Part shown: positions 160 through 28,787 of the stretch, one piece after another
Layout of the letters: every line of letters starts with the position of its first letter
How positions within the stretch are numbered: the first letter of the stretch is position 1
NCBI RefSeq assembly: GCF_020509005.1
Contig: NC_063017.1
Span: 1,922,001-1,986,000 of the forward strand
DNA from: Fulvia fulva
Lineage: Eukaryota > Ascomycota > Dothideomycetes > Mycosphaerellales > Mycosphaerellaceae
DNA: 64,000 bases
Direction: 5' to 3'
Position numbers and translations under genes: made by a program
Notes under the pieces: model-generated
The model's database searches: none
Told to the model about the DNA's origin: nothing
Seen by the model: only the letters and a program-made list of their open reading frames with translations

Positions 160-3100
160 TTCCTTTGCTACTAGAGATTCCTGATATAGTGGTATGCCAC
201 ATCAATATGCTTTGATCTGTCATGGATATAGGCATCTTTGACAAAGGTCAAAGCTGCTTGGTTGTCACCTATAAGCTTCACTGGTCTCAGCTCATCAACA
301 CTACTTTTGCTTGCCTTGATCCTAGGTTGGAATGAACACTCTTCAACCAGGTCAGGACACCTCATCTCTCTAAGGACTGCAGCAAGAAACTGTGACTGCT
401 TAGCTGCTGCATTTATGGCCATAAACTCAGCCTCTATTGTTGATATAGCAACAGACTTCTGCTTCCTACTCATCTAGGACACAGGTGATCTACAAAGGAA
501 CCACATATGTCCAAGGATTGAGACTCTGTCTGCCTTGTCCATAGTATAATCAGAATCTGAGTATCCCTAGAGAATACCTCCTCCTCTTCTATACATCAAG
601 CCCAGGTCTAGGTATGATCTTAGATATCTGGAGAGTTTCTTCAAAGCTCTAAGATGTTGCTTTGAAGGGTCAGCAACATATAAGCTGATTCTTCTAAGGG
701 GGAAAGCAAGGTCTGGCCTTGTCATTATCATTGGTCACATCTAGGTACTATTGCAACTCTGGTACTCCTGTTTGTTGCACCTCTCATCCATAGCAGCTGA
801 AGGTCTTAGATCCTTATAGCTGTCTATAGGTAAGAGTGTTAGTGTGGCCTTCTCTAGAGAGATGCCCATCTTAGTAAGGTCAGTTTGGATGTAGTGTCCT
901 TGATCAAGCTTTAAAGTACCTTGGGACCTGTTTCTTGTAATCCTCATTCTAAGGATCTTCTTAGGTTCCCCAAGATCTTTGATCTTGAACACTCTTCTAA
1001 ATTCAGCCTTGAACCACTAAGCATCTGACAGCTTTAGAGCTATAATGGGGATGTCATCTATATAGGTGAGGACTATGATGTCTCTTCCTCTGTGGATGAG
1101 TAGGCATAGATCTACCTAGGACTGGGTGAATCTAATCTGTTCTAGCTTAGCAATACAGAGCTTGTTCCAATCTCTAGCTGCTTACTTCAGTCTATACAGG
1201 CTTCTAAGGACCTTGAAGACTATATTTAGTGGAATTTCAACACCTGGGGGTGGGATCATGTAGATGTCTTCAAGAGGGCTGCTTTCGGTGAAAGCATTGT
1301 TCACATCTACCTAGTACATCTCAAGATCTCTCTCACATACTACAGCCATGAAGACCCTAAGGGTATCATGCCTAACAGTAGGTGCAAAGGTCTCTTCAAA
1401 GTCAACACTATATTTCTGTGAAAACCCTCTTGTAACTAGTCTTGCCTTGAACTTTTCAATAGCTCTACTGATCATTCTTTTCACATCAAAAACCTACTTA
1501 GATGTAACCAGGTTTGCACCCCTCGGTGGTACAACTGGATCCAAGGTGTTGTTGCTTCCTAAGGTAATAAGTTCTTTCTGGATTGCCTCTTTTCACATAT
1601 GTCCCTAATTAGGGTCTCCCACTGCCTCCTTATAGGACTTTGGGATTGGCACTTCCTGCTGGTAGGCTATGGCCTGCCTAACAGCAGCAAATGCATGTCC
1701 CTCCACATCATTTAGGATTTCCTCAACCCAGCTCATAGTTGGATCAAGATGAAACATCTGAGCAATTAATGCCCTATGATGCTTGGCTTCATGCTTAGCA
1801 GAGCCATCATCTTCATCCCCCCTTGACCTCTTGTTGCCTACAAGCTGAGGTGGCTGTTGAGGTTGATCCTCCTGAACAAGTTCCTCTTCCTTTTCTTTTC
1901 TTGGAGTCCCCTCTACTCCAATCTTCTGGTACTCTCCAATGTCTTTTGGAGGTTGAGGAAGTTGCACAAACAGAGGCTTTGCCTAGAGCTGCTGTGGCTG
2001 CATTGATGAACTGGAGACCTGAGCAGGAGGTCTTCCAACAGGGTTTCTCTTTGGGGCTCTGCTTGACTAGTTTGTGAAGGTGATGCCAAGATCCATATCA
2101 CCTCCCTTCTCATTCTCAAACCAGTCAACTTGGCTATAGGCCTTAACAGCTCGCATGTCAGGCTCCCAGAATAGCCATTGCTTTATGGAGTTCTCATTGT
2201 AACCCACAAAAACAGCTTCTCTTCCTCTATTCATCAATTTGTCTTTTCTCAAGCCCTGAGGCTAGGATCTTAGGTCAACATAGACCACTGCTTTGCATCC
2301 CCAGACTCTAAGATGGTCAACTGATGGTACCTGGCTAGTAAAGGCTTCTTCCGGTGAAAGAGCGACACCATTAACAATTAGGCCATTCGGTAGTCTGTTC
2401 CGAACCACAGCCTGAGCAATAAGGGCCTCTGGCCAGAATTCAACTAGCATGTTTGAGTCCTTAAGCATAGCTCTGACTGTGTTCTTAGAGGCTTGAATTG
2501 ACCTTTCCATAGGCCTATTCTAAAGTGAGTTATAGGCATCAGTATTGTCCATCTGAATGCCAAACTCCTTCTCCCACTGTTTCAGCAAGGCGAGAATCTC
2601 CCTTGCACCGTCACTCCTTATTGCAGAGAGAAAGCACCTTGAGCCTTTCTCTGTCTTTATCTTCTATTCCTGCAGTGCTGCAGGAGCGTCGCTCCTGGCC
2701 TTTAAAGGGATTACCCACTTCTTACGAGAGAAGTTGTCTACAATCTCAAGCCAGTACTTGTACCCTAGTCTTGAGACTGCGCCCTGAAAAGGCCCACAGA
2801 TGTCGATAGAGACAAGGGCTAGCCTTTCTCCTTTTCGCTCTGTAGCAGGACCTTTGAACTTCCTCATGTTAGCAAGGGAACATACCTTGCAGTTATGGTG
2901 TTCAGCAGGAACAGGAGTGGGATCTTTCTTGTCAGTGACTCTGTGCAGGTTTCTTAGCAGTCCCTTGCCAAGGTATGCACATCTTCTATGCCATAGCTCC
3001 CACTGATCTTCTGACTCAGTAGCTGCTATAGCACAATCTAGCTCAATTTTAGTGGCTTGTAGCGAAGCACACCCCTGGGGCACAGCCTCAAGCTGATCAG

Positions 3101-8467: not shown

Positions 8468-8668
8468 ACTATAGATAGATAGATAATTCATTTACCCGTT
8501 GTAGTGCCCTCCGGCCTATACGGGTTTATGTCTATATATGTTACTGCATAAGGTAGGAAACCTATTCCTAGGTAAAAACCTCCTCTCCTTCTCTAATAGC
8601 TTCCTTGCCATGAGTTCTCAGTTTTCCTTCCATTAGGGTGCACTAGTGTCATGGTGGTTAGCCTCTGA

Positions 8669-10153
8669 CTACCTTGTCTGCAACCCTAGAGTTGTCCCCC
8701 TCTTCCTGCTCTCCTCCTCCTTCTTTCTCTCCTCAATACATCTCTCTGTTTCCCTAGTAAGAGAGAACTGCTCCAAAAATCCTTGGTGGATGATCCACCT
8801 TGTAATTCTCTGGAGGTCTCCCTTATTGCTGATCATGGCTTGGAAGTTTCTGTTCCTTGCCCTTGCCCTCCATTCACCTCTCCCTGTACTCCATTCTTTG
8901 CAAACCAGAAGTCTATGTTCGACATTCTGGGACAGGTAGCCGCATGGGCAACTCTTGTCTTCGATACCTGGGACTTTTCTCTGATGCAGGTATGCCCTGA
9001 CTCCGATGTGTTCAGAGCGGATTTGCATTGCTATGCTTGCTTCTGACCTGGTCAGGTCTGAGTACAGTAGGTAGTTGTGGCTACCAAACTGTTGGAGTGC
9101 CTTTGGGGTTCCCGGCCTCTGTGGGGTTCTTGTCCATTCAGTCTTCCAGAGGAGTCCTGCCATCCTTTCAGCTAGAGACTGTTGCTTCTTCCCTTGGCTG
9201 GCTGCTGATCCTCTCCCTTGAGCCCTTCTGTCCTGTTCCTGCTGAGCTAGGTGCAGCTGTTCTGTTAGTTCTTTGAACTTCTGCAGGTCCTGCTGCTTCT
9301 GTGGGGCTGGATTGGGTCTTGCTTGTCTGTGCCTTCTTGTGCACTGGCTCCTGATTTTGTTGACTGCCTTCTGGATTACTAGCTGGGCTGGGTATGCAGA
9401 CGTCTTTCCTGCATACTGGTATCTCAACCCTTGAAGGTAGAGCTTGGCTGGTGGGGAGCCAGACTCCATTTCGACCACCCTTGTTGGAGTTGACTTGTAT
9501 GCTCCAAGCACCTTTTTCAGACAGGAGGCTTGGGCTCTGCTGATGGGATCTGCAATTCTCTTTGGGATCTTGTCTTGGGCTGACCAGATCTGGGCTCCAT
9601 ATAGCATGGCTGGCTTCACAATGGCCTTGTACATAACCTTTGCTTTCGCAAATGTGGCTCCCCATATGGAGGCTGTAAGCCTGTCAATTGATTGCCTGTT
9701 GTTGTCTGCTCTTGCCTGTGCTTTCTTGACCTGTGGTCCCCAGCTGAGCTTTGGATCCATCCATATTCCTAGCACCCTTAATTCACTTGAGGGTTCTGTT
9801 GTGTGTCCCTGAATAGTGATTGGGGCTTGCATATTATGTCTGTTTCTGGCTCTACTGAAGTGGATGAGTTGATACTTCTCTGGGGCAAATCTGGCTCCAT
9901 GTTTCCTGGCCCATTCCTCACATTCCTTGTGTTTCTTCTGCAAGATTCTGCAGTTCTCTTCTGTGCTGTCTGACCAGGCTAGGATGTTTGTGTCATCTAC
10001 AAACCCTGAGGCTGATGTGTTTCTGGAGTTTAGCTTTGCTGGCAGGTCTGCCATAAAGAGGAGAAACAGGATTGGAGACATTGTTGATCCCTGTGGGATT
10101 CCTGTCTCTGTAGGCATGCTGTCAGATTTGTATCTGCCCAGTCTTAGTCTTGT
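8669..10153 (-). pseudogene. 5'-truncated LINE ORF2, open for 482+ codons
   Basis: This is an uninterrupted minus-strand reading frame with first Met at 10117. It contains the RT motifs PQGSTMSPILFLLF and FVDDTNILA (catalytic Asp pair), the thumb, a region rich in Gln and Arg, and a C-terminal cysteine-histidine knuckle CPCGYLSQNVEHRLLVC. The APE endonuclease and RT fingers are missing, so it is the 3' half of a Tad-type ORF2. Unlike every neighbour it has no RIP stops and is rich in CpA/TpG. It is a distinct subfamily from copies C and D, because the encoded residues differ at many positions. It is a dead fragment by truncation rather than by mutation. Confidence 0.8.
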
Positions 10154-11232
10154 GCAAGGAAGGAATCGTATTTAGCAAGCTAGCTACGAGATAAGGTGAC
10201 AAGTCTTAACCGCGCTTTCCCACTCATCTAGTACCACCGTGTAGCCTCGTTTCGAGAGGTTAGCCCGGAGCAAAAGCTTCCCTCTACGCCCTCCCTCCCT
10301 GTTTGCTCCTTAAGCCAATATCCACCTCTATAGGCCTAAGCCCTTTAGTGCTCTCTATTGACCGACATGCGCATCCGTCCTCTCGGGCTATACAGACAGT
10401 ATTAGCCGTCGCTGCTAGTATACACCACGCCCTAGGTTTTAACGCCCTTCGCGTTACCGTAGCCTATCTCTAGAAAGCGGCCGTCTATACCTCGTAGGTT
10501 TGCTCGGGGCACACACTACGCCGGGTAGCGTACTCCTTACGTTTCCACCTACTAACTAATATAAAGTTCCTTATTACCCTACCCTCGATCCTCCCCGATT
10601 ATAGAACTAATCCACTTATATTATACGTCTTTTCCCCGTCCTAACAGCCGTCTTTTCCTTGCTTAGGCTATCGTCTTTTCCTCGTCGCAATCTACTATAT
10701 CAGACTAGGCACGTTGTGTAGCGGGATAGGCAGTGCCTTAGGCAAAACCCTCGTTCCTATACCGGGTGTTTAATAGGCCCTTATAGGCTTCGTCGCGTGT
10801 CTACCTACCTACCGTATTGCCCGCTAGCAAACACTAGATTGTTTCGTAGTCCGCTCGACGCCGTCGTATAGTCCGCTTAGTTGTTGTTCTATAGTCCGCT
10901 CGTCTAATATTCGTCGCTTAGCCCGCTCGGTTTACGGTCTCCGGAGGTAAAAATTCTATACTTATACTAGAGGTGTCCTGTCGAGCGTATAGGCTACGGT
11001 TCCGCGCCCTTCTTATACGTAGAAAGAAGAGGGACTCGCTCCCGACACGAGTATACGCTCGTCGGATAGTTTTTATACCCGTTTTACTAGTAGTCCTCTA
11101 TTCGCCGCGGCTTCGCCTACGTTGCTCGCCCGTCGCGCCTACGACGCTCTAGCGTGAGAATACTTAGCTCTCTCGTAGTAAGACGAGAGGTTCGTAGCCG
11201 ACACTACGTATAGGTAATTCTCGTCGTCGACC
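10154..11232 (-). repeat. 1,079-bp chimera module, copy 1
   Basis: This segment is a near-identical direct repeat of 17599-18677. It has the same length and differs mainly by C/T and G/A transitions. Both copies begin at GCAAGGAAGGAATCG directly against LINE sequence and end with GTCGACC. The minus strand at its right end continues the Gag-like frame (DDENYLYVVSATNLSS...). It has no LTR-type ends. Confidence 0.85.
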
Positions 11233-12360
11233 TCTATAGTTATATAGTCCTCTACTTTCTCCTTCTACTCTATAAATCCTAGTCCATCCTTATAACTAGG
11301 TATATTAGCTAAGAATATAGGAATCTTCCTCGAGTTAATCGAGTTACGGGTACCGCCGTTACTACGCTAGATAGCGGCGTTAACTAAGACTACCGTAGTG
11401 TTATTATTGTCGCTAGCTATAGTAGAGGTAGCCTTCTTAGTCTTTATTATACCTATCTTAATACTAGAGCCCTCGCCGTCGAGTAGCTTCTCGAGGGCGG
11501 ACTTCTACCTCGTAGGAGGTAGTAGAGGTGTCGGTTCCTTAGGCTTTAGCTAAGCAATATAGTCATCGCGCTCCTTTAGCTAGGCTTATAGATCCGTAAT
11601 AAACGCGGTAGTACGCTTACCTAAGCTCTACTTAGTAGCTAACTTAGTCTAGGTCGCTTCGAGTTTACTAGCTAGATCTATATTACGACTACGTAAGTTC
11701 TTAATCTTAGCGACCGCCTTCTTACCTAACTTCTTTAGGTAAGCGATCTTAGCTACTAAGTCCTTATTGTCCCTAAGCTCGTCGAGTATTACTTAGAGTA
11801 ATACTAACTTATCCTTATACCGATTAGCCTTAGCCTATAGCCGACTCTTCTAAGTAGTTAATACCTCCCGTACCTCCTTAAGACCGAGGTAGGCGAGACG
11901 GTGTTCGTCTAGGACATCTAGCTAGGCTTCTAGGTTCTTAGTAACCGAGCGAGAAAGCTCCTCGGCTATAGCGATCTAGAACTTAGTAGGGTTATACCGT
12001 AGCCTATATTCTACCTCTTCGCCCTTCTAGGTAAAGTTAATTAGTATCGTATAGCGGTAGCTAAGATATTCCTCCTTCCGCGTACGTATACCCTATTATA
12101 AGGTCTTATCCTCTCTACCTATACGGAGTCGAGTTTCCTTCTTAGACTAACGTCGGTTATACTTATTACGTAGTAGCTCTTAGTACTTCTAGCGCCGACG
12201 TTCTTCCTCTTACTACGCTACGCTAAGTACGCCGTTCCGCTTTTATCGGGCTTCTCGGAGGAACGCCTTCGTAAGAGGGTTCAGGTTAAGTCTTAGGATA
12301 AAGGATGATTCGTCTAGTCCGATAGTCGTATTAGTACCTACGGCTATTTAAGTCTCGGTC
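10950..12360 (-). pseudogene. Gag-like protein remnant, RIP-mutated
   Basis: Read on the minus strand with stops ignored, the frame gives TIGLDESSFILRLNLNP, a long charged helical stretch (LRDNKDLVAKIAYLKK), then SRKIPIFLANIPSYKDG, EKVEDYI and DDENYLYVVSATNLSS, continuing into the shared module. The layout of a coiled coil followed by a 'P-x-F-x-G ... W/E-K' core resembles fungal retroelement Gag proteins. Most interruptions are TAG/TAA at likely Gln or Trp codons. It is on the opposite strand to the gypsy pol at 12500, so it does not belong to that element. The exact family is unknown to me. Confidence 0.5.
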
Positions 12361-12589
12361 GTACGCGGTCGTAGTAGCGATACGTAGTCTATAATCGTAC
12401 GGCTCGGCGATCTAAGGGCGGTAGAACTTAATAACACGGATAAGGCGTAAGATAGGGCGTAAACGTATCAATACCTTAGAATCGAATAAGTTCTACGAAG
12501 AAGAGAAGATAAGAAAGTCGCGAAGCCGCGATAAAGTAAACGTCGAGGTTAAGGTCTAGGGTCCGGACGCGCTAGCGTACTAGGTTACG

Positions 12590-14735
12590 TAATACTAAGT
12601 ATAGCCTTACGAGGTGAACCGTGATAGTAGCCGAGATTTAACGGCCTTTATAACGCCTCTTAGGCTTATACGGTATATAACGTTACTATAGGGTACGACG
12701 AACTTAGTTACTTAGTTCGTACGGGTAGTAACTAAGGTGTTAATAGACTATATTTCTTACCGAGCAAAACTATTTCTTAACGATATCGGCGTAAAAGGTC
12801 CTACTAAGGACTATAGTAACGCTAAGGTAGAGCCTAGCCTTTAATAATAGGTCGTAGAATATATTATATCCCTTAATCTTGTTCTTACGGACCTAGAGAG
12901 GGCCGGAGCGGTAGTCGTAGGAGAGAAGTCGTAGTGGCTTTATAAGACCCTAAAGATCGTAGGCTATATTACTAGCCCGAGCGGCCGCTATCTAGATCCT
13001 AAGGTAGTAGCTAAGATCTTAAACTAGCTAACCCTAAAGTACGTAAAGGACGTTCGAGTTTATATTAGGATCTATATTTACTTCCGGATTAAGGTCCCCT
13101 AGTTCGTAATCGTTGCTCGGCCAATATATAAGCTTTTAAGGAAGGACGTCGAGTTTGTCTAGACTAAGAATAAGTAGTTCTCGAAAGAGAACCTAGTAAG
13201 ATTCTTAGTAATAGTACTAGTATTAGTAACTATCTCCTACGCTCTAGGAGCTAGTAGGATCTTCGTTTCTATTAACGCGAGTAGTATTAGGTAGGGTTAT
13301 ATAATATCGTAGGAATTACTAGATAATACTCGACGAAGATACCTAGTAAGGTATAAGAGCGGTACCTAGAACGTAAACAAGGCTAAGTACGATATAGGAA
13401 AGCGGGAGTACCTCGGAGTACTAAAGGGCCTTAAGAAGGTGTAGCGCTACCTCGTAGGAGTAGACTTTATCCTCGAAGTTAATACTAAAACGCTAGTATA
13501 GTAGTTAAATCGGCTAGTATCCGATATTCTAAACTCTATAATAGTAAGGTAGGTTACTTAGATCCGGCTATTTACCTTTAAAGTAAGGTATGTCGATAGG
13601 AAGAAGTACTCCGGACCGGATATACTGTCTCGTAAACTACCTATAGCTAAGGAGCTTACGGAACCTAACGATAATATTAATAAGATAATTAACGACAAAT
13701 TCTTCCGTTATACCGAGCTAGTTAACACTTTCCCCGTTATTCTAGAGCGTAAACGACTCCTCGAACCCTAGTATAGTAACAATTCCGAGCTTATAGCTTA
13801 TATTCTAGAATATTAAACACGACCGGAAGGGGTTACCCGGGCTAAGTATCGAAACCTCGTTAAGAAAAGTCCTCGGTACTATTTAAGAGACAAGCTCTTG
13901 TTTTATTAGCGGCGAAGGGGTACACCGATATCCGATATAGCTAGTAGTAGACGATAATAATACTTAGAAAGAGATCGTAATATACTATTATAAAAAGTAT
14001 AGTTACCGGAGTGCCGAGCTAGTATATAATCTTATTACTAGCCGGTATTACTAAGAGGGCTACTTCTCCGACGTATCGAATTAGGTAAGGACTTATACTC
14101 CTTATAACTTTCGTAAAGATAACTAGAGAGTAGGAGAAATACACTTATCGACTTAGTAGGTTATAGGAGAGAGGTAGTACTACGATCCCGTCTACGTATA
14201 TAGAAACGGGTACTTACTTATCGCTCGAGAAGCTTTAAGTAGGTAGATTAAGGCGAAGGTCGTACGGAAGCCTCTAAATTCGCGGGCGATTACTAAGTTC
14301 TTATACGAGATAGTATTTAGCCGGTATAGATACTACTATAAGATTATGCTTAATAACGCTAGTATTAACGAAGGGGAGGTAAAGAGGATACTTATTAGTA
14401 TAGGTATTAAGTAAATCCGGATCTTACCCTACTATCCGTAGTTAAATATAACTACAGAAGTAGGACATCGACCTGTTCTAGCTATATTAGCTAAGCTTAC
14501 TAAGAACACCTATAAGTTCTAGGAACGATAGATTACTACGGTACTTTAGGCTAATAGAACTACGGTATCTAGAATCACGGGTATAATGCCGGCGGAGGTC
14601 CTATATAGCTATCGTACTATTCTCCCGATCGAGGTAGAATACCTAATATAGGCGAACTATAAATAGGGATCTATTAGATTACCGGAGGAGCTATTAGCTA
14701 TTCGGGCGCGTTAATTATAGCTACGGGATATAAGT
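12590..14735 (+). pseudogene. Gypsy RT / RNase H / integrase N-terminal part
   Basis: With stops ignored, the plus strand gives SSRDLTAFITPL, FLNDIGVKGP (RT catalytic FxDD loop, second position Asn), LADLERAGA-like text, LKIVGYI, ARPIYKLLRKDVEFV, KREYLGVLKGLKKV, FTFKVRYVDRKK and DILSRKLP. These are RT and RNase H landmarks of chromodomain-type fungal gypsy elements. An integrase zinc-finger and core region follow. TAG/TAA stops occur every few tens of codons, with intact codons between them, as expected from RIP. Confidence 0.8.
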
Positions 14736-14750
14736 CTTTAGGAGTTATAG
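14736..14750. repeat. Target-site duplication, left copy (LINE C)
   Basis: CTTTAGGAGTTATAG is repeated exactly at 18678-18692. The last bases overlap the start of the GATA tail, so the true duplication may be 13-15 bp. Confidence 0.85.
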
Positions 14751-14939
14751 ATAGATAGATATTTCATTAAGCTATTGTAGTGCCCTTTGGCCTATGCAGC
14801 TATGCTATCTTGTTTTTGTATATATAGAGGGGAAACCGTGTTGGTGAAAACCCCTCCTCCTTCCCGCCTGTCTTTTCCTCCTCGTTGTCGTCTTAAATTT
14901 CCCTTGTTAGGGGTACGCTAGTGTCATAGGCCTGCCCTG

Positions 14940-17598
14940 ATGACTACCCTATCTGCAACCCCCCTCGCTTCCGCCTCTTGTCTATCCACTCCTCCGTCTC
15001 GCTCGCGAGGCTAAACTGCTAGAGGTATCCCTGCTGTAGTATCTACCGAGAGATTCGGCGAATGTTGCCTTTGTCCCTAATAATTGACTTGTAGTCTCTC
15101 CTTCCCGCTTGGTGCCTCCAATTTCCCCTGCCTCTCGCCCACTGCGGGCATCGTAGTAGCATATGTTCTGGGTTTTGCGATAGGTAGCCACACTGGCAGG
15201 CTGGGCTATAGATGTCTAGTGCGCGTCTTCTGAACAGGTAGGCCCTTAATCCAATGTGTTCGGACCTGATTTGGATCGCTATGCTTGCTTCGGCCCTTGT
15301 CAGGTCCCTATATAGCTAGTAATTGTGTCTCTAGAAGGCTCGGAGCGCTATCGGGCCTGTTGTCTTAGGGGGCTTCCTTTTCTAGTCCTGCTCCCATAGG
15401 CAGCTCGCTATCTGTTCCGCTAGGTTTTGGGTCTTAGCCTTGCTCCCGCCGGCCTAGCGAGTCCTACGCTCCTCCTCCTTTCGTGCTAGCCATTCGGTGC
15501 TTGTCTGTACGGCCGTAAAGGTCGTAAGGTCATCCTCTTTTTGGCTTGTCCTATATCCTGCCCCTCTCCGGTAGCGGCTTTCTATCTTATTCTTTGCCTC
15601 CTAGATCGTGGTTTGTGCTAGGTAACCTGTCGTCTTTGCCGCGTATTGAATTCTCATTCCCCGGATGTACTAGCCGATTAGTAGTATTCCTGTCTCCATT
15701 TCTACCGTGCTTGTTAACGTTGTCTTGTATACGCCTAGTACCCTACGTAGGTTGCCTGCCTGTGTCCTATTTAGGGGTTGCTCTATCCGTTTCGGGATCG
15801 GCTTGCCTACGCCTCCTGTTCCCCAAATCTGTGCCCCGTATAACATAGCTAGTCTGACGATCGCCTTATACATTACTCTTGCCTTGTCGAATGTTGCTCC
15901 CTATATAGATGCCGTAAGCCTCTTTATCGAGGCTTCATTGACTTGCGCTCGACTCTAGGCTTTCTTAATCTGTACATTCTAGCTTAGCTTCGGGTCGAGC
16001 CAGATCCCTAGTACTCGTAGCTCCGCTGATAGCTTGGTCTCGTAGCCTTGGATTCTTACCGCCGCCTTTATATTATAGTGTGTTCTCGCTTTACTGAAGT
16101 GTATAAGTTGGTACTTTTCAGGGGCGAACCGGGCACTATGCTTCTTTGCCCACTCCTCGCATTTCTTATGCCTATCTTCAAGGAGGCGATAGTTCTCTTC
16201 TGTCGAGTCTGACCAGGCTAGGATGTTTATATCGTCTACGAACCCCGATACTAAGGTTTACGGAGAGGTGAGTAGGGGGATTAGATCCGACATAAATATC
16301 AGAAACAGGATAGGGGAGAGAGTAGATCCCTGAGGTATTCCAGTCTCTGCCTTCACCGGGTCGGACGTGTACCTTCCTAGGACTAGGTATGTCGTCCGTT
16401 CCTAGAGAAAGGAGAAGACGAACGACGTTGCCTACTGGGGGATGCCTTTCTGCTATAGGATATGTATTAGCCTTTGGTGTGAGACGTTGTCGAAGGCCCC
16501 TACGATGTCGAGGGATAGTAAGGACGCCGCTCGGTTCCTGCCGTAGTGCTAGAGGGTCTGGATTTGCTCCGTAATTAGCTCTATTGCTATTAGTGTCGAT
16601 CGCTAGCTTCTTCCCCCCATCTGTGTTGCTAGGAGTACGTGGTTGTCCTCGGTAAGCTGCGTAAGTCTCTAGGCTACTATCTTTTCTAGGACCTTCCCTA
16701 TCGTATTTAGAAGTGCTATTAGTCTATACGACTTAGGCTGAGTATAGTCTTCCTTCTGTGGCTTGCGTAGCACTACTGTCATAGACTCTCTATACGGCTT
16801 CGGGTGATACCCTAGCCGTAGGCACGCGGTAAATAGGTTTGTAAGGCTCGGCGCGATCTCTTCTCTATACTCTTTTAGCAGTACGTTTGGTATCCTGTCT
16901 AGGCCTAGGGCTTTTCGTCCCTTTAGCTTACTTATGACTCCTGTTACTGTGTTAGAGCTAACCGCCTAATCTATGTCTAGGGGTTCCGGGTATGTGCTCG
17001 GGTCGATGTCCGTAAGGTCTGCCTCTACTTACGTCGAAAAGAAATAGTCGGCTAACGCTTTTGCCTTGCCCCGGGGCGTAGCCTAGGCAATCCCTTCGCG
17101 GTCTACGATTAGGGGGAAGTGAGGGGCTTGTTGCTCTTTAGGTAGTCGTGCCTATTTAGTAAGTCTCCACATCTATTCCGGGTTTTCTATAACGAGCCCG
17201 ATCGTCGCTCTCTAGTCCTGTAGCTTATCGCGTCTTATCTGTGCCTTCTTCTCTTATGTCGCGTGGCAGTATTGCTCCTACGTCTCTTAGGTGTGCTCCT
17301 TCGTCTACTGTCGCCTTGCCCTTCTAGCCTCCCTTACCTTCGTAGAGTATTTAGGGGTCCAGAAGGCCTTCTGCTACGTTAAGGGCCGGAGTAACGGCGT
17401 GTATTGTTCCGCTGCTTGCTATATGACCGAGGTAATCTGTTCCGCTACTTGATCTAGCTGAGCTGTCGTCTCGAGTTCTCTATGCTGTGGTAGGTTCGCT
17501 ATTAGGAAGCCTCTTATGTCGTCCTAGCGTGCCTTCTTCTAGTTACGGCGTGGTTCGTTTACTAGCTCCTCTATCGCCTTCACCCCTAGCGTCGTTTG
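14940..17598 (-). pseudogene. LINE C ORF2 (RT and C-terminal region), RIP-mutated
   Basis: The minus strand encodes RT motifs with many stops. FVDDINIL is at about 16217-16240, and a segment corresponding to 'GIPQGS..SPILF' is at about 16290-16345. The short open stretch at 15670-15873 (YKAIVRLAMLYGAQIW) matches the thumb region also seen in copy B. The sequence parallels copy D closely up to 17598, where the fusion to the module occurs. The endonuclease domain is not present. Confidence 0.75.
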
Positions 17599-18677
17599 GC
17601 AAGGAAGGAATCGTATTTAGTAAGCTAGCTACGAGATAAGGTGATAAGTCTTAACCGCGCTTTCCTACTTATCTAGCACCACCGTGTAGCCTCGTTTCGA
17701 GAGGTTAGCCCGGAGCAAAAGCTTCCCTCTACGCCCTCCCTCCCTGTTTGCTCCTTAAGCCAATATCCACCTCTATAGGCCTGAGCCCTTTAGTGCTCTC
17801 TATTGACCGACATGCGCATCCGTCCTCTCGGGCTGTTTAGACAGTGTCAGCCGTCGCTACTAGTGTACACTACGCCCTAGGTTTTGACGCCCTTCGCGTT
17901 ACCGCAGCCTATCTCTAGAAAGCGGCCGTCTATGCCTCGTAGGTCTGCTCGGGGCACACACCACGCCGGGCAGCGTACTCCTTGCGTTTCTACCTACTAA
18001 CTAATATGAAGTTCCTTATCACCCTGCCCTCGATCCTCCCCGATCACAGAACTAATCCACTTACATTATACGTCTTTTCCCCGTCCTAATAGCCGTCTTT
18101 TCCTTGCTTAGGCTATCGTCTTTTCCTCGTCGCAATCTACTATGTCAGACTAGGTGCGTTGTGTAGCGGGACAGGCAGTGCCTTAGGCAAAACCCTCGTT
18201 CCTATACCGGGTGTTTAACAGGCCCTTATAGGCTTCGTCGCGTGTCTACCTACCCACCGCATTGCCCGCTGGCAAACACTAGATTGTTTCGTAGTCCGCT
18301 CGACGCCGTTGCATAGTCCGCTTAGTTGTTGTTCTATAGTCCGCTCGTCTAATGTTCGTCGCTTAGCCCGCTCGGTTTACGGTCTCCGGAGGTGAAAATT
18401 CTGCACTTATACCAGAGGTGTCCTGTCGAGCGTATAGGCCACGGTTCCGCGCCCTTCTTACACGTAGAAAGAAGAGGGACTCGCTCCCGACACGAGTACA
18501 CGCTCGTCGGATAGTTTTCATACCCGTTTTGCTAGTAGTCCTCTGTTCGCCGCGGCTTCGCCTACGCTACGCGCCCGTCGCGCCCACGACGCTCTAGCGT
18601 GAGAATACTTGGCTCTCTCGTAGCTAGACGAGAGGTTCGTAGCCGACACCACGTACAGGTGATTCTCGTCGTCGACC
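17599..18677 (-). repeat. 1,079-bp chimera module, copy 2
   Basis: The same module as 10154-11232, with equal length and mainly transition differences. This copy ends at the target duplication, so its Gag-like frame is cut after about 50 codons (LYVVSATNLSSSYERAKYSH is readable near 18600-18660). The fusion base to LINE is the same module base as in copy 1, but the LINE position differs by about 1.2 kb. Confidence 0.85.
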
Positions 18678-18692
18678 CTTTAGGAGTTATAG
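18678..18692. repeat. Target-site duplication, right copy (LINE C)
   Basis: This is the exact repeat of 14736-14750. It follows the module end GTCGACC directly, which proves that the module lies inside the insertion. Confidence 0.85.
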
Positions 18693-19230: not shown

Positions 19231-19564
19231 TTTAGGTTAAAGGAGGGATAGGACTTTATTATTTCTTTTTCTTAGGCGTAAGGAGTTTACTTAGTAGTTT
19301 TAGTTTCTAACCTTAATTTAACTAGCTTCTAGTTCTAGTACCTAGTTTCTAGCGTGCTTAACTAATTTCTAGGCTATATCCTTAATTTAAGAGTAGGCTT
19401 ACTACGAAGACTAGACTTTAACTTAGCCTCCTTAGCCCCTTATAGAATGAACTTACGATCCCCTTAATATCTCGAGACTAACTACTTAACTAGACGCCGG
19501 ATCCGCCTTCCTTACGTATAACTTATAGGTATAGTTTCTTAGTTTATATTAGCGTAGCGGAGGT

Positions 19565-19575
19565 AAAACTAGGGA
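19565..19575. repeat. Target-site duplication, left copy (LINE D)
   Basis: AAAACTAGGGA is repeated at 24732-24742. A further TAG matches on both sides but is ambiguous with the element's tail. Confidence 0.8.
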
Positions 19576-19779
19576 TAGATAGATAGATATTTCATTAAGC
19601 TGTTGTAGTGCCCTTTGGCCTATATAGCTATGCTATCTTGTTTTCGTATATATAGAGGGGAAACCGTATTAGTGAAAACCCCTCCTCCTTCCCGCCTATC
19701 TTTTCCTCCTAGTTGTCGTCTTAAATTTCCCTTATTAGGGGTACGCTAGTGTTATAGGCCTGCCCTGATGACTACCCTA

Positions 19780-22700
19780 TCTGTAACCCCCCTCGCTTCC
19801 GCCTCTTATCTATCTACTCCTCCGTCTCGCTCGCGAGGCTAAACTGCTAGAGGTATCCCTACTGTAGTATCCACCGAGAGATTCGGCGAATATTGCCTTT
19901 GTCCCTAATAATTGACTTGTAGTCTCTCCTTCCCGCTTGGTGCCTCCAATTTCCCCTGCCTCTCGCCTACTGCGGGCATCGTAGTAGCATATGTTCTAGG
20001 TTTTGCGATAGGTAGCTACACTAGCAGGCTGGGCTATAGATGTCTAGTACGCGTCTTCTGAACAGGTAGGCCCTTAATCCAATGTGTTCGGACCTGATTT
20101 GGATCGCTATGCTTGCCTCGGCCCTTGTTAGGTCCCTATATAGCTAGTAATTGTGTCTCTAGAAGGCTCGGAGCGCTATCGGGCCTATTGTCTTAGGGGG
20201 CTTCTTTTTCTAGTCCTACTCCTATAGGTAGCTCGCTATCTGTTCCGCTAGGCTTTAGGTCTTAGCCTTGCTCCCGCCGGCCTAGCGAGTCCTACGCTCC
20301 TCCTCTTTTCGTACTAGCTATTCGGTGCTTATCTATATAGCCGTAAAGGTAGTAAGGTCATCCTCTTTTTGGCTTGTCCTATGTCCGGCCCCTCTCCGGT
20401 AGTAGCTTTCTATCTTATTCTTTGCCTCCTAGATCGAAGTTTGTACTAGGTAACCTGTCGTCCTTACCGCGTATTAAATTCTTATTCCCCGGATGTACTG
20501 GCCGACTAGTAGTGTTCCTGTCTCTAGTTCTACTATACTTGTTAACGTTGTCTTATATACGCCTAGTACCCTACGTAGGTTGCCTACCTATATCCTATTT
20601 AGGGGTTGCTCTATCCGTTTCGGGATCGGCTTGCCTACCCCTCCTGTTCCCTAAATCTATGCCCCGTATAGTATAGCTAGTCTAACGATCGCCTTATATA
20701 TTACTCTTGCCTTATCGAATATCGCTCCCTATATAGATGCCGTAAGTCTCTTTATCGAGGCTTCGTTAACTTGTACTCGACTCTAGGCTTTCTTAACCTA
20801 TACATTCTAGCTTAGCTTCGGGTCGAGCTAGATCCCTAGTACTCGTAGCTCCGCTAATAGCTTTGTCTCGTAGCCTTAGATTCTTACCGCCGCCTTTATA
20901 TTATAGTATGTTCTCGCTTTACTAAAGTGTATAAGTTGGTACTTTTTAGGGGCGAACTAGGCACTATACTTCTTTGCCTACTCCTCGAATTTCTTATACC
21001 TATCTTCGAGGAGGCGATAGTTCTCTTCTGTCGAGTCTAACTAGGCTAGGATGTTTATGTCGTCTACGAACCCCGATACTAAGGTTTGCGGAGAGGTGAG
21101 TAGGGGGATTAGATCAGACATAAATATTAGAAACAGGATAGGGGAGAGAGTAGATCCCTAAGGTATTCCAGTCTCTGCCTTTACCGGGTCGGACGTGTAC
21201 CTTCCTAGGACTAGGTATGTCGTCCGTTCCTAGAGAAAGGAGTAGACGAACGTCGTTACCTACTAGGGGATGCCTTTCTGCTATAGGATATATATTAGCC
21301 TTTAGTATAAGACGTTATCGAAGGCTCCTACGATGTCGAGGGATAGTAAGGACGCCGCTCGGTTCCTACCGTAGTGCTAGAGGGTCTGAATTTGCTCCGT
21401 AATTAGCTCTATTACTATTAGTATCGATCGCTAGCTTCTTCCCCCTATCTATATTACTAGGAGTACGTGGTTGTCCTCGGCTAGCTACGTAAGTATCTAG
21501 GCTACTATCTTTTCTAGGACCTTCCCTATCGTGTTTAGAAGTGCGATTGGTCTATACGACTTAGGCTAAGTATAGTCCTCTTTCTGTAGCTTACGTAGTA
21601 CTATTGTTATAGACTCTCTATACGGCTTCGGGTGATACCCTAGCCGTAGGTACGCGGTAAACAGGTTTACTAGGCTCGGCGCGATCTCTTCTCTATACTC
21701 TTTTAGTAGTATGTTTAGTATCCTATCTAGGCCTAGGGCTTTCCGTCCTTTTAGCTTACTTATAACTCCTATTACTATGTTAGAGCTAACCGCCTAATCT
21801 ATGTCTAGGGGTTCCGGGTATGTGCTCGGGTCGATATCCGTAAGGTCTACCTCTACTTACGTCGAAAAGAAATGGTCGGCTAATGCTTTTGCCTTGCCCC
21901 GGGGCGTAGCCTAGGCAATCCCTTCGCGGTCTACGATTAGGGGGAAGTGAGGGGCTTGTTGCTCTTTAGGTAGTCGTGCCTATTTAGTAAGTCTCCACAT
22001 CTATTCCGGGTTTTCTATAACGAGCCCGATCGTCGCTCTCTAGTCCTGTAGCTTATCGCGTCTTATCTGTGCCTTCTTCTCTTATGTCGCGTGGCAGTAT
22101 TGCTCCTACGTCTCTTAGGTGTGCTCCTTCGTCTACTGTCGCCTTGCCCTTCTAGCCTCCCTTACCTTCGTAGAGCATTTAGGGGTCTAGAAGGCCTTCT
22201 ACTACGTTAAGGGCCGGAGTAACGGCGTATATTGTTCCGCTGCTTACTATATAACCGAGGTAATCTGTTCCGCTACTTGATCTAGCTAAGCTGTCGTCTC
22301 GAGTTCTCTATACTATAGTAGGTTCGCTATTAGGAAGCCTCTTATGTCGTCCTAGCGTGCCTTCTTCTAGTTACGGCGTGGTTCGCTTACTAGCTCCTCT
22401 ATCGCCTTCACCCCTAGCGTCGTTTAGATAGGGATATAGTCTAAGGAGGCTTCTAGCGCGTAGTTCGGTCGGCATTAGACTAGTCTCTCTTTAAGTTCTC
22501 GTAATAGAAAGTATAGGTCGATCGTGCTTATACTTAAACGGGCCTTCTACGTCTCTGTTCCCTTTAGTGTTGCTAAGGCCATTCCGTAGCGTGTGGTTAT
22601 ATCTAGTAGCTTTTCCCCTAGAAACGCGTACGGGGGAGTGAATTCGAGTCCCTACCGTAGGTAGTAGAGGTTAAAGTCGCCGAGGAGTACTTGCTTTATG

Positions 22701-23230
22701 TCTTGGCTTAGGGTCCGCTCTAGGTAGGCGAGGGTTCCTAGTTCCCTACTCGTCCGACCCCGCGGTAGCGGGTTATAAACGTTATAGATCTAGATAGGGC
22801 CTTGTGTCGTATCGATCTAGATTAATGTTATGTCTCCTAGGTTGCCCTACTACGGTAGTATAACCTTCTACGACTCAAGGTCTATAGTCTTGCTTACGTA
22901 TATATATGTCCTCGGGATAACGCCTCGTTAGCCCGCGATTACGGTGTAGTATCTCCGGTCATTACAAGTAGCTAGGAGTCCTTCGTAGGGGTTGACCTAT
23001 AGTTCCTATACCGTAATAACGTAGTGCCGTAGCGGGTCTAGCTCTTATAGAAAGTAGCGCTAGACCTTGTCCCTACTTTTGTTTACGTTGTACTATACGA
23101 TAGTAATGTCGTCGTATAGTATTATTCGTTATCCGTAAGGTCTATTTCCGTGCTAACCTACTGTGTCTCCTAAGCCTATATCTCGCTATCCGGCTAGCCC
23201 TAGGGCCGCTAGGGCGCCCTAAAGATTTGC
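19780..23230 (-). pseudogene. LINE D ORF2 (endonuclease + RT), RIP-mutated
   Basis: The endonuclease landmark LLGDFNLYYL lies at about 22655-22690 (family motif GDFN). RT FVDDINIL lies at about 21047-21070, with the catalytic Asp pair preserved. The thumb and C-terminal region run down to about 19790, near the tail. Stops occur throughout, consistent with CpA-directed mutation of Gln and Trp codons. Confidence 0.75.
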
Positions 23231-23249
23231 ATTTGGCCTAGTTCGTTAG

Positions 23250-24650
23250 CGGCCCGGTTAAGGTGTCGAGGCCTACTAGGAGGTAGATACGTTTACGGTT
23301 AGGTTCCCTTGTTCGTCTCTTCTGCCCTCTTCCTTTTGCTCGGTTCGAAGCCCTTATATACGGTAGGTCCCTCCTACTACCGTTAGGGGTACCTAGCTAG
23401 TATAGAAATCCTTGCTTTTCTCGCTCGTTCTTATACTGCTATTCTAGTTAGGCATTGGCTTAAATACGCTAGGTGCCTTCTGCCGTAGTATATATACCTA
23501 CTCTCCTTTTTTAGGTATTCCCTTCCCTAGTATAGGCCTGCGTAGTAAGGACACCTTAGGGTCTTCTCCCCGTATTTTAGGGCTATATGACCGTACTGTT
23601 GGCATTAGAAGCATTATAGTACCCTATAGCTACTCTAATAGATCTCCGTGTCTATTCTCTCGTAGTTCTAGAATAGCCTATTGTCTAGTATCTAGTTAGC
23701 TTGTTCCGCTGTCTCTACCTAGATAATAAGCGATAAGTATGTCTTTTCTCGGTCTACTATCTTATATAGCTATGCCGCCTTCGTTAGTCGTACTCCTAGG
23801 GAGGTGTTCTAGTTCTATACTTAGAGGTAGGGAAGGTCTTCGACCTTAAATGTCCTAGGGACCCCGTAGGCGATAACGGTATACTATTAGTAGGAGACTC
23901 GTACCGACTTCGCGACTTTAGTAGTCCACTCCTTATAGGTCTCTAGCTTTCGTCTATTAGACTCTTATACGGTAAAGAGTCTCACTACGCCTATTGCCTC
24001 TGCCCTCGCTCTAACTACCTCCTTTTGGCCGATTCTGTCGACAATCTCCTTGCTTATTAGGGCTACGATTTCTTGTTTTTCCGCCGGATTAGTAATATAT
24101 AGGCGTACCGCCTTACTTGCCTTCGGAGGGGGTTAATTCTTGCCTACTACTACTCTTGCCTATATAGTTGGTCTCTAGGCTACTTTCTGTGTTGCTTATT
24201 AGATTGTTTTCGGGATTTAGTATAATAGCGCTTTTAGCGCTCCTAGTAGCTATACGATAGTGTTCTTATATATCCGGGCTAGGTGTTCGCTATCCCCTAG
24301 TAAGTCTTCCGCCTCCGTATATAGGGTCGTCTACGCTATATTGTTTGTCGTTAGCCTCTGCTTTCTATATAGTAGGCCTTAGCTTATGTCCTAGGTTTTT
24401 CCTTAGTCTGTTCCCCGGTTTAACTCTTAGTATAGAGTGTTTATAAGGCTATAGCTCTCGTTAGTTACTATCCTTCGCTACTATTCGGGGTCGCGCTTCC
24501 TAATTAGGTAGTTGTCCTCCGTAACTCCGTAACTCTAGGGTCTGCCTTTAGGGGAACGGAACCTCAGTTTTAGGGTTCTTTATACTACGATTACGCCGCC
24601 GCTAGCGTAGGCGGGTCGCTACTGCTTAAGTAGATTACTCGCCTTAATAA
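23250..24650 (-). pseudogene. LINE D ORF1 with zinc knuckle, RIP-mutated
   Basis: A minus-strand remnant reads CF-CQQYGHIALKY at about 23585-23635, a CX2CX4HX4C knuckle whose last Cys has become Tyr (TGT to TAT, RIP-type). This is followed by KTLRCPYYAG. Upstream the frame contains short helical segments such as DLLGDSEHLARIYKN at about 24270-24310. This matches the Gag-like ORF1 of Tad-type LINEs. Confidence 0.6.
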
Positions 24651-24731
24651 GGGCTGTCGAATAAATAGTCCTCGTCCGCTATAGGTACGCCCCGTAGTCT
24701 ATATAGGACCTTTCGTACGTCGAGGCCCTTT

Positions 24732-24742
24732 AAAACTAGGGA
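24732..24742. repeat. Target-site duplication, right copy (LINE D)
   Basis: This is the exact repeat of 19565-19575 and marks the 5' end of the full-length LINE. Confidence 0.8.
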
Positions 24743-24745
24743 TAG

Positions 24746-25091: not shown

Positions 25092-25213
25092 CTAGTAACG
25101 ATTCTATAGGATATTGTTATATTAAGATACCGTCGTAATTAAAGTAGAAGTAGTATAGTTCTTAGTAAAAGTAGCCTGCTCGGTAGTATAGCCCGCTCGG
25201 TAGTAAAGTACGT
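25092..25213 (+). repeat. Orphan right end of a Fot1/pogo element
   Basis: This stretch is nearly the same as the right end of the next element (27033-27149). It includes the inverted-repeat sequence with the doubled CCCGCTCGGTAGTA motif and ends ...AAAGTACGT before TA. No matching left end is found, so it is a deleted or truncated copy lying 80 bp from the complete one. Confidence 0.7.
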
Positions 25214-25384
25214 TAACTCTATCTACGTAAGATATACTTATTAATCGATACTAGAGATTAATAGCCGTACTATATACCAAAAATATACTATTAACGTGCT
25301 TTACTACCGAGCGGGCTATACTACCGAGCGGGCTACTTTTGCTAAGAACTATACTACTTCTATAGATATAGCTATATAGCTACT

Positions 25385-26762: not shown

Positions 26763-27149
26763 GTAAGTCTAACGAGGCCCTTATATAGTAGAAAGTACGA
26801 AAGCGTAAGTATATTTAGTCTAGAGAGTCTCTAACCTTCGATAAGGCGTCGTAATTAATACCTCTAGAGGATACTAGGAGGTAGGAAGTAAGTAGAGAGT
26901 CGCTAGATAGTATTTAGCTAGTACTAAGGCTACGACGCTATAAGCGATATAGCGAGTCGGAGTATAACGTACGTACCTATTAAGTAGACTCGCTAGATAG
27001 CGAAGAATCTAAAGAGAAATTGTCCTCCTAGTAACGATTCTATAGGATGTCGTCGTATAAAGATACCGTCGTAATTAAAGTAGAAGTAGTATAGTTCTTA
27101 GTAAAAGTAGCCCGCTCGGTAGTATAGCCCGCTCGGTAGTAAAGTACGT

Positions 27150-28787
27150 TAGCGGTTATAAATCTCTAAAGGGTAAGCGTAGTAAAGTAGAGCTCTATAC
27201 TTCCTATTTCCTTAAGAGCGTACGATCTACGCTATACCGAATCGATATATAGTACTTAATACGATAATACGGGCGCGTATATTTTACGAGCTTGCTAATA
27301 GGTATAGTACGGCTAGTACGTAACCTTGATTAGTTATTCTAGCATTTTGATTATTAACCAATTAGAAGAGCGCCAAGGAGTTCTTAGGGCTAGTAATAGA
27401 GCTCTACTCCCTCGCTAACGCCAACACCTACGCTCGAGTGTTCGCAAGCTCACACGTCGCTACGCTTAATGACTGCAGGATCATTCCAGCAACCTCATTG
27501 ACACGCCTGCTTACCTTTGACATAGCCAAATTGCCTGCGATCGTGAAGGTGGCTCTTCGAGAAGCAGATACAATCGGAATACCTCTTCTACGAGCTACCA
27601 ATTCAGATCCAGAACATCCGTAGACGTGGTGTTGAGTCGTCCCGGCAATGATGTTGGTTCCGCGAAACATGTTTCTGCACGTTCAGTTTCCTGCCACGTT
27701 GTACAGACGAGCAGTCGGTCGAATCGACCGAGTACCGTGGATGGTCTGCGTCACAAGGCAGTCTCTGTCAGCACCGGCCTTTCCGGTGTCTCCCGAGTCA
27801 GAGGAGCAGCTCGTATAGCTAGCCAGCGTTGAGGGTGAGGAGTTCGCTGAATTGCGGTCTGTGAAACAGGCAGGCGTGTCCTGGTATTCATGCTCATGGT
27901 ATAGCTGACACTGCAGCGCGTCGAGAAGCTCAACGCTCAGCAATAAGAGGCGGAGGATGTGGACTAAGCGGGTGTAGTGCCCAACAATGGTTGTTCGAGG
28001 CGTTTGTCTCGTACTGTATATGAAATGCAGAGCTGGTGGTGAGATTTGCCAAGATGGTCAGATGTGTGAGGCGCTAGTGGGTGCCAGACCAGCATCGGCA
28101 TATTCTCGGCCCTTCTCAACTCTCCGTGGAGAGGCGATGCGGGGATGTTGGAGAGAGCTGTGTGCGAGCTGTCCGACAGATGAGCTGCTGAGCTGCCATT
28201 GGGACGCCAGTTCACAATACACACGTTGATGCTTCAACCAACCTCCCTGCACATAGACTGCTGGGACCGATAAGACATGTGGTAGTATCGTGAATCCGCT
28301 TGCGTCCATGTCCACGCGGGAGTGCTCCACCAAACTTGACATTCTGACGTTAGCTTCCAGAGCTCGGACGGCAGCTTCGCTTCACCACTGACCAGCCTCC
28401 AGCTTTCCCATTTCGACAGCGACTGCTTTACTCTTGACCACCTCATCATCGCCTCGTGCCTTCTGCAAACACAACACTTGGAAGCAGTGCTCTTGCATAC
28501 CTAGTCAGCACCCGACTAGCCGCAGATCTGCCACGAGGTACGTCCCAAAACAGCACCATTGTGCACCACCCAGTACATCGCCGGAGACATCGAGATGGTC
28601 ACAAGCTGCTCGCGTTACATCATACCGCTGCCCGGCGCCTCCAGTGACACCCGAGCACCACCAGCTGACTGACACCCATTGGAAACAGAGCTACCCACCG
28701 TCGCACCCCTCCCGAGATATTCTCTCGAGCACTCGACACACACGACAACCAGTCATTACCTGGCACGGAGCCACCCATACCTCCACC
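27150..28787. other. Boundary of repeats and upstream region of GSY1
   Basis: Up to about 27430 the DNA still has the TA-rich repeat character. From there composition becomes gene-like, with balanced CpA/TpG. Two overlapping short open frames (27438-27623 plus strand, 27428-27670 minus strand) show no family I recognise. The last few hundred bases are the promoter and leader of the glycogen synthase gene. Confidence 0.5.

Follow-up and report, generated by a model that had tools for sequence, protein, structure and literature searches.

One constant module joined to LINEs of several groups in Fulvia fulva: likeness to the MINE chimeras of Magnaporthe

How do two truncated retrotransposons of different kinds come to carry the same foreign sequence at their 5' ends? 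The question is raised by a stretch of 64,000 nucleotides of the Fulvia fulva genome (contig NC_063017.1, positions 1,922,001 to 1,986,000), here denoted the window, in which two minus-strand copies of long interspersed nuclear elements (LINEs), B and C, are each joined on the 5' side to a module of 1,079 bases. The answer that we consider fairly probable is that these are chimeric insertions like the MINE elements of Magnaporthe, in which a LINE reverse transcriptase continued onto the 3' end of one noncoding RNA. An earlier note on this DNA had reported that the two modules start at exactly the same base, and GCAAGGAAGGAATCG was indeed found exactly twice on the plus strand of the window, at 10154 and 17599; the modules align over their full 1,079 bases with 94.4% identity. 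Its other observations were borne out as well: copy C and its module lie inside one 15-bp duplication, CTTTAGGAGTTATAG (Table 1), the LINE breakpoints of B and C are about 1.2 kb apart by their positions on open reading frame 2 (ORF2) of the copy-B family, and the long copy D has no module. The LINE part of copy B consists of ORF2 from residue 636, the 3' untranslated region and CTAT repeats, and that of copy C matches the copy-B-family ORF2 from residue 244, 43 bases into the flank, placing the break near residue 230. These LINE parts belong to two different LINE groups (69.7% identity over 535 aligned bases), which makes the module common to both more striking. Copy B shows no convincing target duplication (9 bases, off the LINE end), hence its insertion as a single event rests on other copies. 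The constant module end falls on the final G of ..CCTTCCTTG, a base short of the end quoted earlier; in the junction analysis the outermost C beyond ..CCTTCCTTG is readable as LINE.

The module is repeated throughout the genome. Searching all 67,169,167 bases in 14 contigs, we found 556 matches to the module 5' end (26-base word, at most one mismatch) and 546 exact matches to a 20-base word near the 3' end, while reversed control patterns gave zero matches; chance is thereby excluded. The near-equal counts of the two ends point to modules that are mostly complete; 40 of 657 candidates were scored, and each was full length or at most 6 bases short. Shorter modules were also read: stretch L026 holds an additional 5'-truncated module of which only the last 42 nt are present, and the inner modules of two double joints start at position 371 (L082) and 165 (L099). 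In 22 of 22 copies with long flanks the module starts with (G)GTCGACGAC and ends with ..TCCTT(G/A)(C/T), and the sequence 3' of the module differs between these copies.

We read 101 junctions, of which 100 are distinct, as L068 and L082 contain one and the same junction (L-numbers denote the genomic stretches read, WB and WC the window copies B and C). Of these, 20 were drawn from the 39 other copies that had been scored with module B as query. A further 38, all from contig 1, are among the first 100 places at which the 20-mer was listed. Another 19 come from 17 stretches, most of them copies scored against module C, and 21 from 20 stretches taken from copies scored against L076; the remainder are the second module end in L026 and the window's two junctions. 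L001-L008 were dropped as repeats of window copy B and L009-L015. The earlier note had advised listing the flanks of module copies, and on this sample the listing revealed a fixed module end, varied donor breakpoints and bounding duplications. A variable module end next to a fixed LINE end, which the note had named as the contrary outcome, is the opposite of what was found: there is one module end and there are 59 distinct donor sites, two of which lie within another module. A Chao estimate puts the donor sites genome-wide at about 120, a rough figure given the non-random sample. Nearly all junctions have the same module end on the LINE sense strand, two being without an assigned partner. With the open frames of L050 as tblastn queries, LINE ORF1 or ORF2 was detected after the module at 54 of 60 junctions in the first two batches, 17 of 19 in the third and at 20 of 20 places in the fourth. 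Among the misses, the sequence after the module matches the 5' region of copy D in L039 and L057, and a stretch just upstream of the LINE frames of L010 and L013 in L078 and L080; L059 has a weak match to LINE-containing loci, L068 is a double joint that runs into a second module, and the partners in L040 and L047 were left unassigned. One stretch, L069:1563-7308, carries a tandem segmental duplication of about 4.67 kb with two chimeras whose modules are identical.

The LINE partners fall into at least four groups: B; C/D with L021, L028 and L041; L020, L022 and L026; and L014 with L017. Identity is 95-97% within groups and 64-78% between them, and L031 may represent a fifth. Ten of the 22 long-flank copies join the young LINE family B at seven places, namely 19, 504, 558, 762 (two copies), 1236 (three), 1358 and 2138 in L018 coordinates, and nine of the ten match up to 3041-3043. 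Every long-flank copy has its module 5' of the LINE when read in LINE orientation, as would suit a module that is the normal 5' region of the LINE, the chimeras then being internal deletions. The earlier note had likewise named as contrary a LINE family whose full-length members have the module inside them; instead, the full-length family B element at L050:2689-7538, a 4,850-base block shared with L049 whose open frames span 426 and 1,129 codons between stops, is without the module. Copy D also lacks it, and the same module joins several LINE groups, leaving the internal-deletion explanation with almost no credibility. The L050 family itself is very young and has both frames open, all 40 copies scored of 216 candidates being at least 99% identical over 400 bases.

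Target duplications place module and LINE in one insertion. A duplication bounds the module and LINE together in 14 of the 22 long-flank copies, anchored at the module 5' base (the 14 include L028, whose repeats differ at two bases and are offset by two). A module-blind search starting from 40 LINE 3' ends recovered 17 duplication-bounded insertions, and in 13 of these the insertion starts with the first bases of the module. With its many copies and constant ends, the module might be taken for an element resembling a short interspersed nuclear element (SINE) that moves alone and comes to sit beside LINEs; yet no solo module was identified among the 100 distinct junctions (two with unassigned partners) and the duplications lie outside module plus LINE, so that we regard this as extremely improbable. 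Two stretches, L084 and L106, show the module, a spacer of some 35 nt that is similar to genomic target DNA, and then the LINE from the start of ORF1, as if sequence flanking the LINE had been carried along by 5' transduction before the joint was made. L084 was considered as a solo source gene, with non-LINE DNA after the module, and rejected, as one 15-bp duplication encloses module, spacer and also LINE (the middle of the LINE was unread).

Is the choice of LINE breakpoint free? The donor sequence was scored at 51 of the 59 sites, the eight without an unbroken copy being excluded; each joint was read as module ..CCTTCCTTG followed by the donor from +1, and background frequencies were taken from one LINE, L050. 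A purine at -2 followed by a pyrimidine at -1 (R-Y) was present at 49 of 51 sites (background 0.215; nominal binomial p about 1e-30), and R-Y followed by C at +1 (R-Y^C) at 46 of 51 (background 0.062; nominal binomial p about 7e-50), p-values that are overstated because the rule was found and tested on the same data, the sites are partly homologous and the background comes from one LINE. C occupies +1 at 46 of 51 sites against a background of 0.254, CC follows the break at 34 of 51 against 0.069, and R-Y-Y is seen at 48 of 51. For the +1/+2 part only, the rule could be followed genome-wide, where two pyrimidines come after the module's last base (G, or its product A under repeat-induced point mutation, RIP) in 498 of 546 copies. 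RIP cannot alter the purine and pyrimidine classes, because it makes only C to T or G to A changes. When the module served as donor, in the two double joints, R-Y was kept in two of two cases and R-Y-C in one of two.

The two C residues after the module end had raised the suspicion of microhomology. This was rejected: opposite the module's last G the LINE has a G at only 1 of 51 sites (L057, poorly aligned), so the joint was not made by pairing with the module end. Over the next five bases, 46 of the 51 joints are exactly module ..TTG plus LINE, four fit when transitions, as made by RIP, are allowed, and L057 is a misfit. Splicing was rejected as the joiner too, as the bases before the LINE breakpoints are R-Y and not AG.

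Some donor sites have been used repeatedly. Two largely linked non-RIP changes, at alignment columns 51 and 368 (0-based) of 40 full-length modules, define two module subtypes; ten copies carry both changes and L028 carries one. This split suggests that the modules came from two or more source alleles or genes. Both subtypes have been joined at site 762 and again at site 1236 of LINE B, and the same-site sets {L009,L010} and {L011,L012,L024} each mix them, therefore at least two origins are required per site. At site 1236 the module subtype goes with a different LINE-B variant, and a matching break in the reverse transcriptase coding sequence, at ORF2 residue 595-596, occurs in four LINE groups (B; C/D; the L022 group; L031). 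Joining has thus recurred independently at some sites. These data bear on a composite that arose in a few founding fusions and was then retrotransposed as a unit, with the module as its 5' region. In its favour are five sites with 4-7 reads each, the double joints of the form module-module'-LINE, in which the LINE joint of L099 is that of the simple chimeras L088/L098 and the LINE joint of L082 is that of L089, and the single duplication of L084 described above. Against it stand the 59 sites in 101 reads, the two mixed sets and the sharing of non-RIP variants, which averages 0.25 in 12 same-site pairs and 0.28 in other pairs. Altogether we judge such a composite improbable.

In its features the module resembles a noncoding RNA: it has a single 3' end, and poly(A) is absent from the joint. 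The longest stop-to-stop frame in the little-mutated copy L076 has 76 codons, and no long open reading frame was present in any frame. A known RNA was rejected as its identity: Rfam gave no match near threshold for window positions 5000-26000 or for L076, ARAGORN detected no tRNA in the window, module copy 1 contains no telomerase template word, and folding of the module was not more stable than that of shuffles (z about +2).

Module copies differ mostly through RIP that followed insertion: of 87 polymorphic transition columns among 22 copies, 80 are in CpA/TpG context. In the ten LINE-B chimeras the first half of the module is heavily mutated and the last quarter much less, at 3-10 of 27 sites, compared with 14-23 of 27 in eleven chimeras whose LINE is RIP-mutated and 8 of 27 in the lightly mutated copy C; over up to 1.58 kb, the LINE-B part of those ten shows 4-36 changes of the RIP type. 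Across these LINE-B chimeras (window 8470-11232, L009-L013, L015, L018, L023 and L024) mutation fades toward the joint. RIP seems to have acted on the module as a repeat while LINE B was still rare. Joining continued after RIP weakened, because the comparison with L076 gave 99-100% identity for the 40 copies scored. L076, L081, L084 and the 20 places scored against L076 are all chimeras with LINE. Many RIP-mutated source copies for the module RNA were judged unlikely, as RIP was mostly post-insertion and those 40 copies are nearly identical to L076.

The fusion was probably made at the RNA or complementary DNA (cDNA) level, by a template jump onto the 3' end of a single RNA, and we infer that joining took place during reverse transcription. 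In the proposed sequence of events, a LINE would start target-primed reverse transcription on its own RNA. At an internal R-Y^C site the enzyme would halt or run into the broken end of its template; synthesis would then carry on from the 3' end of one particular noncoding RNA, some 1,078 nt long, and would usually reach its 5' end, after which the joint cDNA would be inserted with a target duplication. Alternatively, the RNAs may have been ligated first, an endonuclease cutting at R-Y^C, a tRNA-ligase-like activity joining the product to the 3' end of the module RNA and the LINE machinery copying the chimera. The sharp R-Y^C rule without microhomology would suit a cleavage site, the double joints with the module as donor follow the rule to the extent given above, and ligation is named as an alternative for the chimeras of U6 RNA and LINE-1 (PMC13174262). 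The enzyme and the chimeric RNA are both hypothetical here, and the 5'-truncated module of L026 and the double joints are compatible with either model; we consider ligation rather unlikely.

Several points weigh against continuation of the reverse transcriptase onto a second RNA. The donor rule is sharper than ordinary pausing and could mean RNA cleavage, and its p-values are too small for the reasons given, but the effect is large. Copies were chosen by similarity or contig order and not at random. Six of the 22 long-flank copies have no duplication, and those of L026 (10 bases) and WB are weak; random controls scored 12 or more at 5 of 66 positions, in the repeat-rich L017, WB and WC. In the larger same-site groups, chimeras have possibly been re-mobilised as units. 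Finally, a free module RNA ending in ..CCUUCCUUG is deduced from genomic scars, and no source gene was found among the module copies read.

A bolder reading, which we hold to be doubtful, is that an R-Y^C event in LINE RNA (a cut, perhaps in host defence, or a programmed stop) and a dedicated partner RNA together form a standing capture system. If true, the partner RNA would be a noncoding LINE parasite that joins whichever LINE group is active and has reached about 550 copies, and the same arrangement in Magnaporthe and Cladosporium would be a shared feature of filamentous fungi.

The features of the window are collected in Table 1. A short repeat of another kind was also noticed, with direct 124-nt copies at 25092-25215 and 27028-27151 and an inverted 71-nt third piece at 25292-25362.

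Table 1. Positions of the two chimeras and of LINE copy D in the 64-kb window.
Feature	Position	Strand	Remarks
Module copy 1, apparently noncoding	10154..11232	-	5' end GGTCGACGACG at 11232; RIP-mutated
Constant 3' end of module copy 1, ..CCTTCCTTG	10155	-	
5'-truncated family B LINE joined to module copy 1	8470..10153	-	few RIP-type changes
Module copy 2	17599..18677	-	constant 3' end at 17600; lightly RIP-mutated
5'-truncated group C/D LINE joined to module copy 2	14751..17598	-	
Target-site duplication of chimera C, 3' side, CTTTAGGAGTTATAG	14736..14750	.	
Target-site duplication of chimera C, 5' side, CTTTAGGAGTTATAG	18678..18692	.	
LINE copy D, long, same group as C	19575..24730	-	RIP-mutated; without module
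15-bp duplication of copy D, CTATCCCTAGTTTTA	24731-24745 / 19564-19578		overlaps CTAT tail

How do these chimeras compare with known systems? In end-to-end template jumping by R2, the reverse transcriptase moves to the 3' end of another RNA without homology, as shown in vitro at RNA 5' ends; here, in contrast, jumping is deduced from genomic scars, and these follow a sequence rule. In mammals, chimeras of U6 RNA with LINE-1, and related ones, have the RNA 5' of LINE-1, with U6 mostly in sense orientation and full length, and target duplications; template switching or ligation has been proposed for them (PMC13174262). In the portions of that paper drawn on here, they involve mostly short known RNAs of many kinds, whereas one long RNA dominates in F. 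fulva.

For this fungus, also named Cladosporium fulvum, one genome paper gives the name Tad1 to the abundant LINEs and puts their share of the Race 5 genome at 16.3% (PMC9453070). A literature search found no paper reporting such chimeras in C. fulvum, and a whole-word find in the main text of C. fulvum genome papers returned none of the words chimeric, WEIRD and MINE.

The closest likeness is to MINE, the fusions of WEIRD sequence with the LINE MGL, of which a 2007 survey of one fungus, Magnaporthe, counted 31 (PMC2104539). As described in the sections of that survey used here, a noncoding RNA of about 1.1 kb, copied in full length, lies 5' of a variably truncated LINE in the same orientation, with target duplications, repeated sites, a double jump and no solo RNA gene found; its authors report no microhomology and a short motif at the LINE sites (PMC2104539). 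By our own count of the survey's Table 3, G-Y-Y stands just upstream of the site in 17 of 18 rows (PMC2104539). The GCC*A/U motif of MINE and R-Y^C (R-Y-Y at 48 of 51 sites, G opposite the module end at one) look alike, and the break as read here seems to fall one or two bases earlier (PMC2104539). The systems differ also in number, 31 elements against about 550 copies here, and in donors, which are mainly MGL with one Mg-SINE case there and four or five LINE groups here (PMC2104539). WEIRD is 1,113 bases long and the module 1,079, and the likeness is one of arrangement, as judged from the description of WEIRD (PMC2104539). Judged by arrangement, the chimeras work like MINE, which upholds the MINE-like process proposed in the earlier note. 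Scale, several LINE donors and an exact donor rule are new relative to the MINE literature as represented by that survey. About 550 scars in one finished genome are enough for statistics on the donor rule, on independent hot spots and on several donors meeting one acceptor, and with a concrete RNA end available, jumping and ligation can now be tested directly against each other. F. fulva, a Dothideomycete, adds a second fungus in which one long RNA is favoured as the partner of LINEs.

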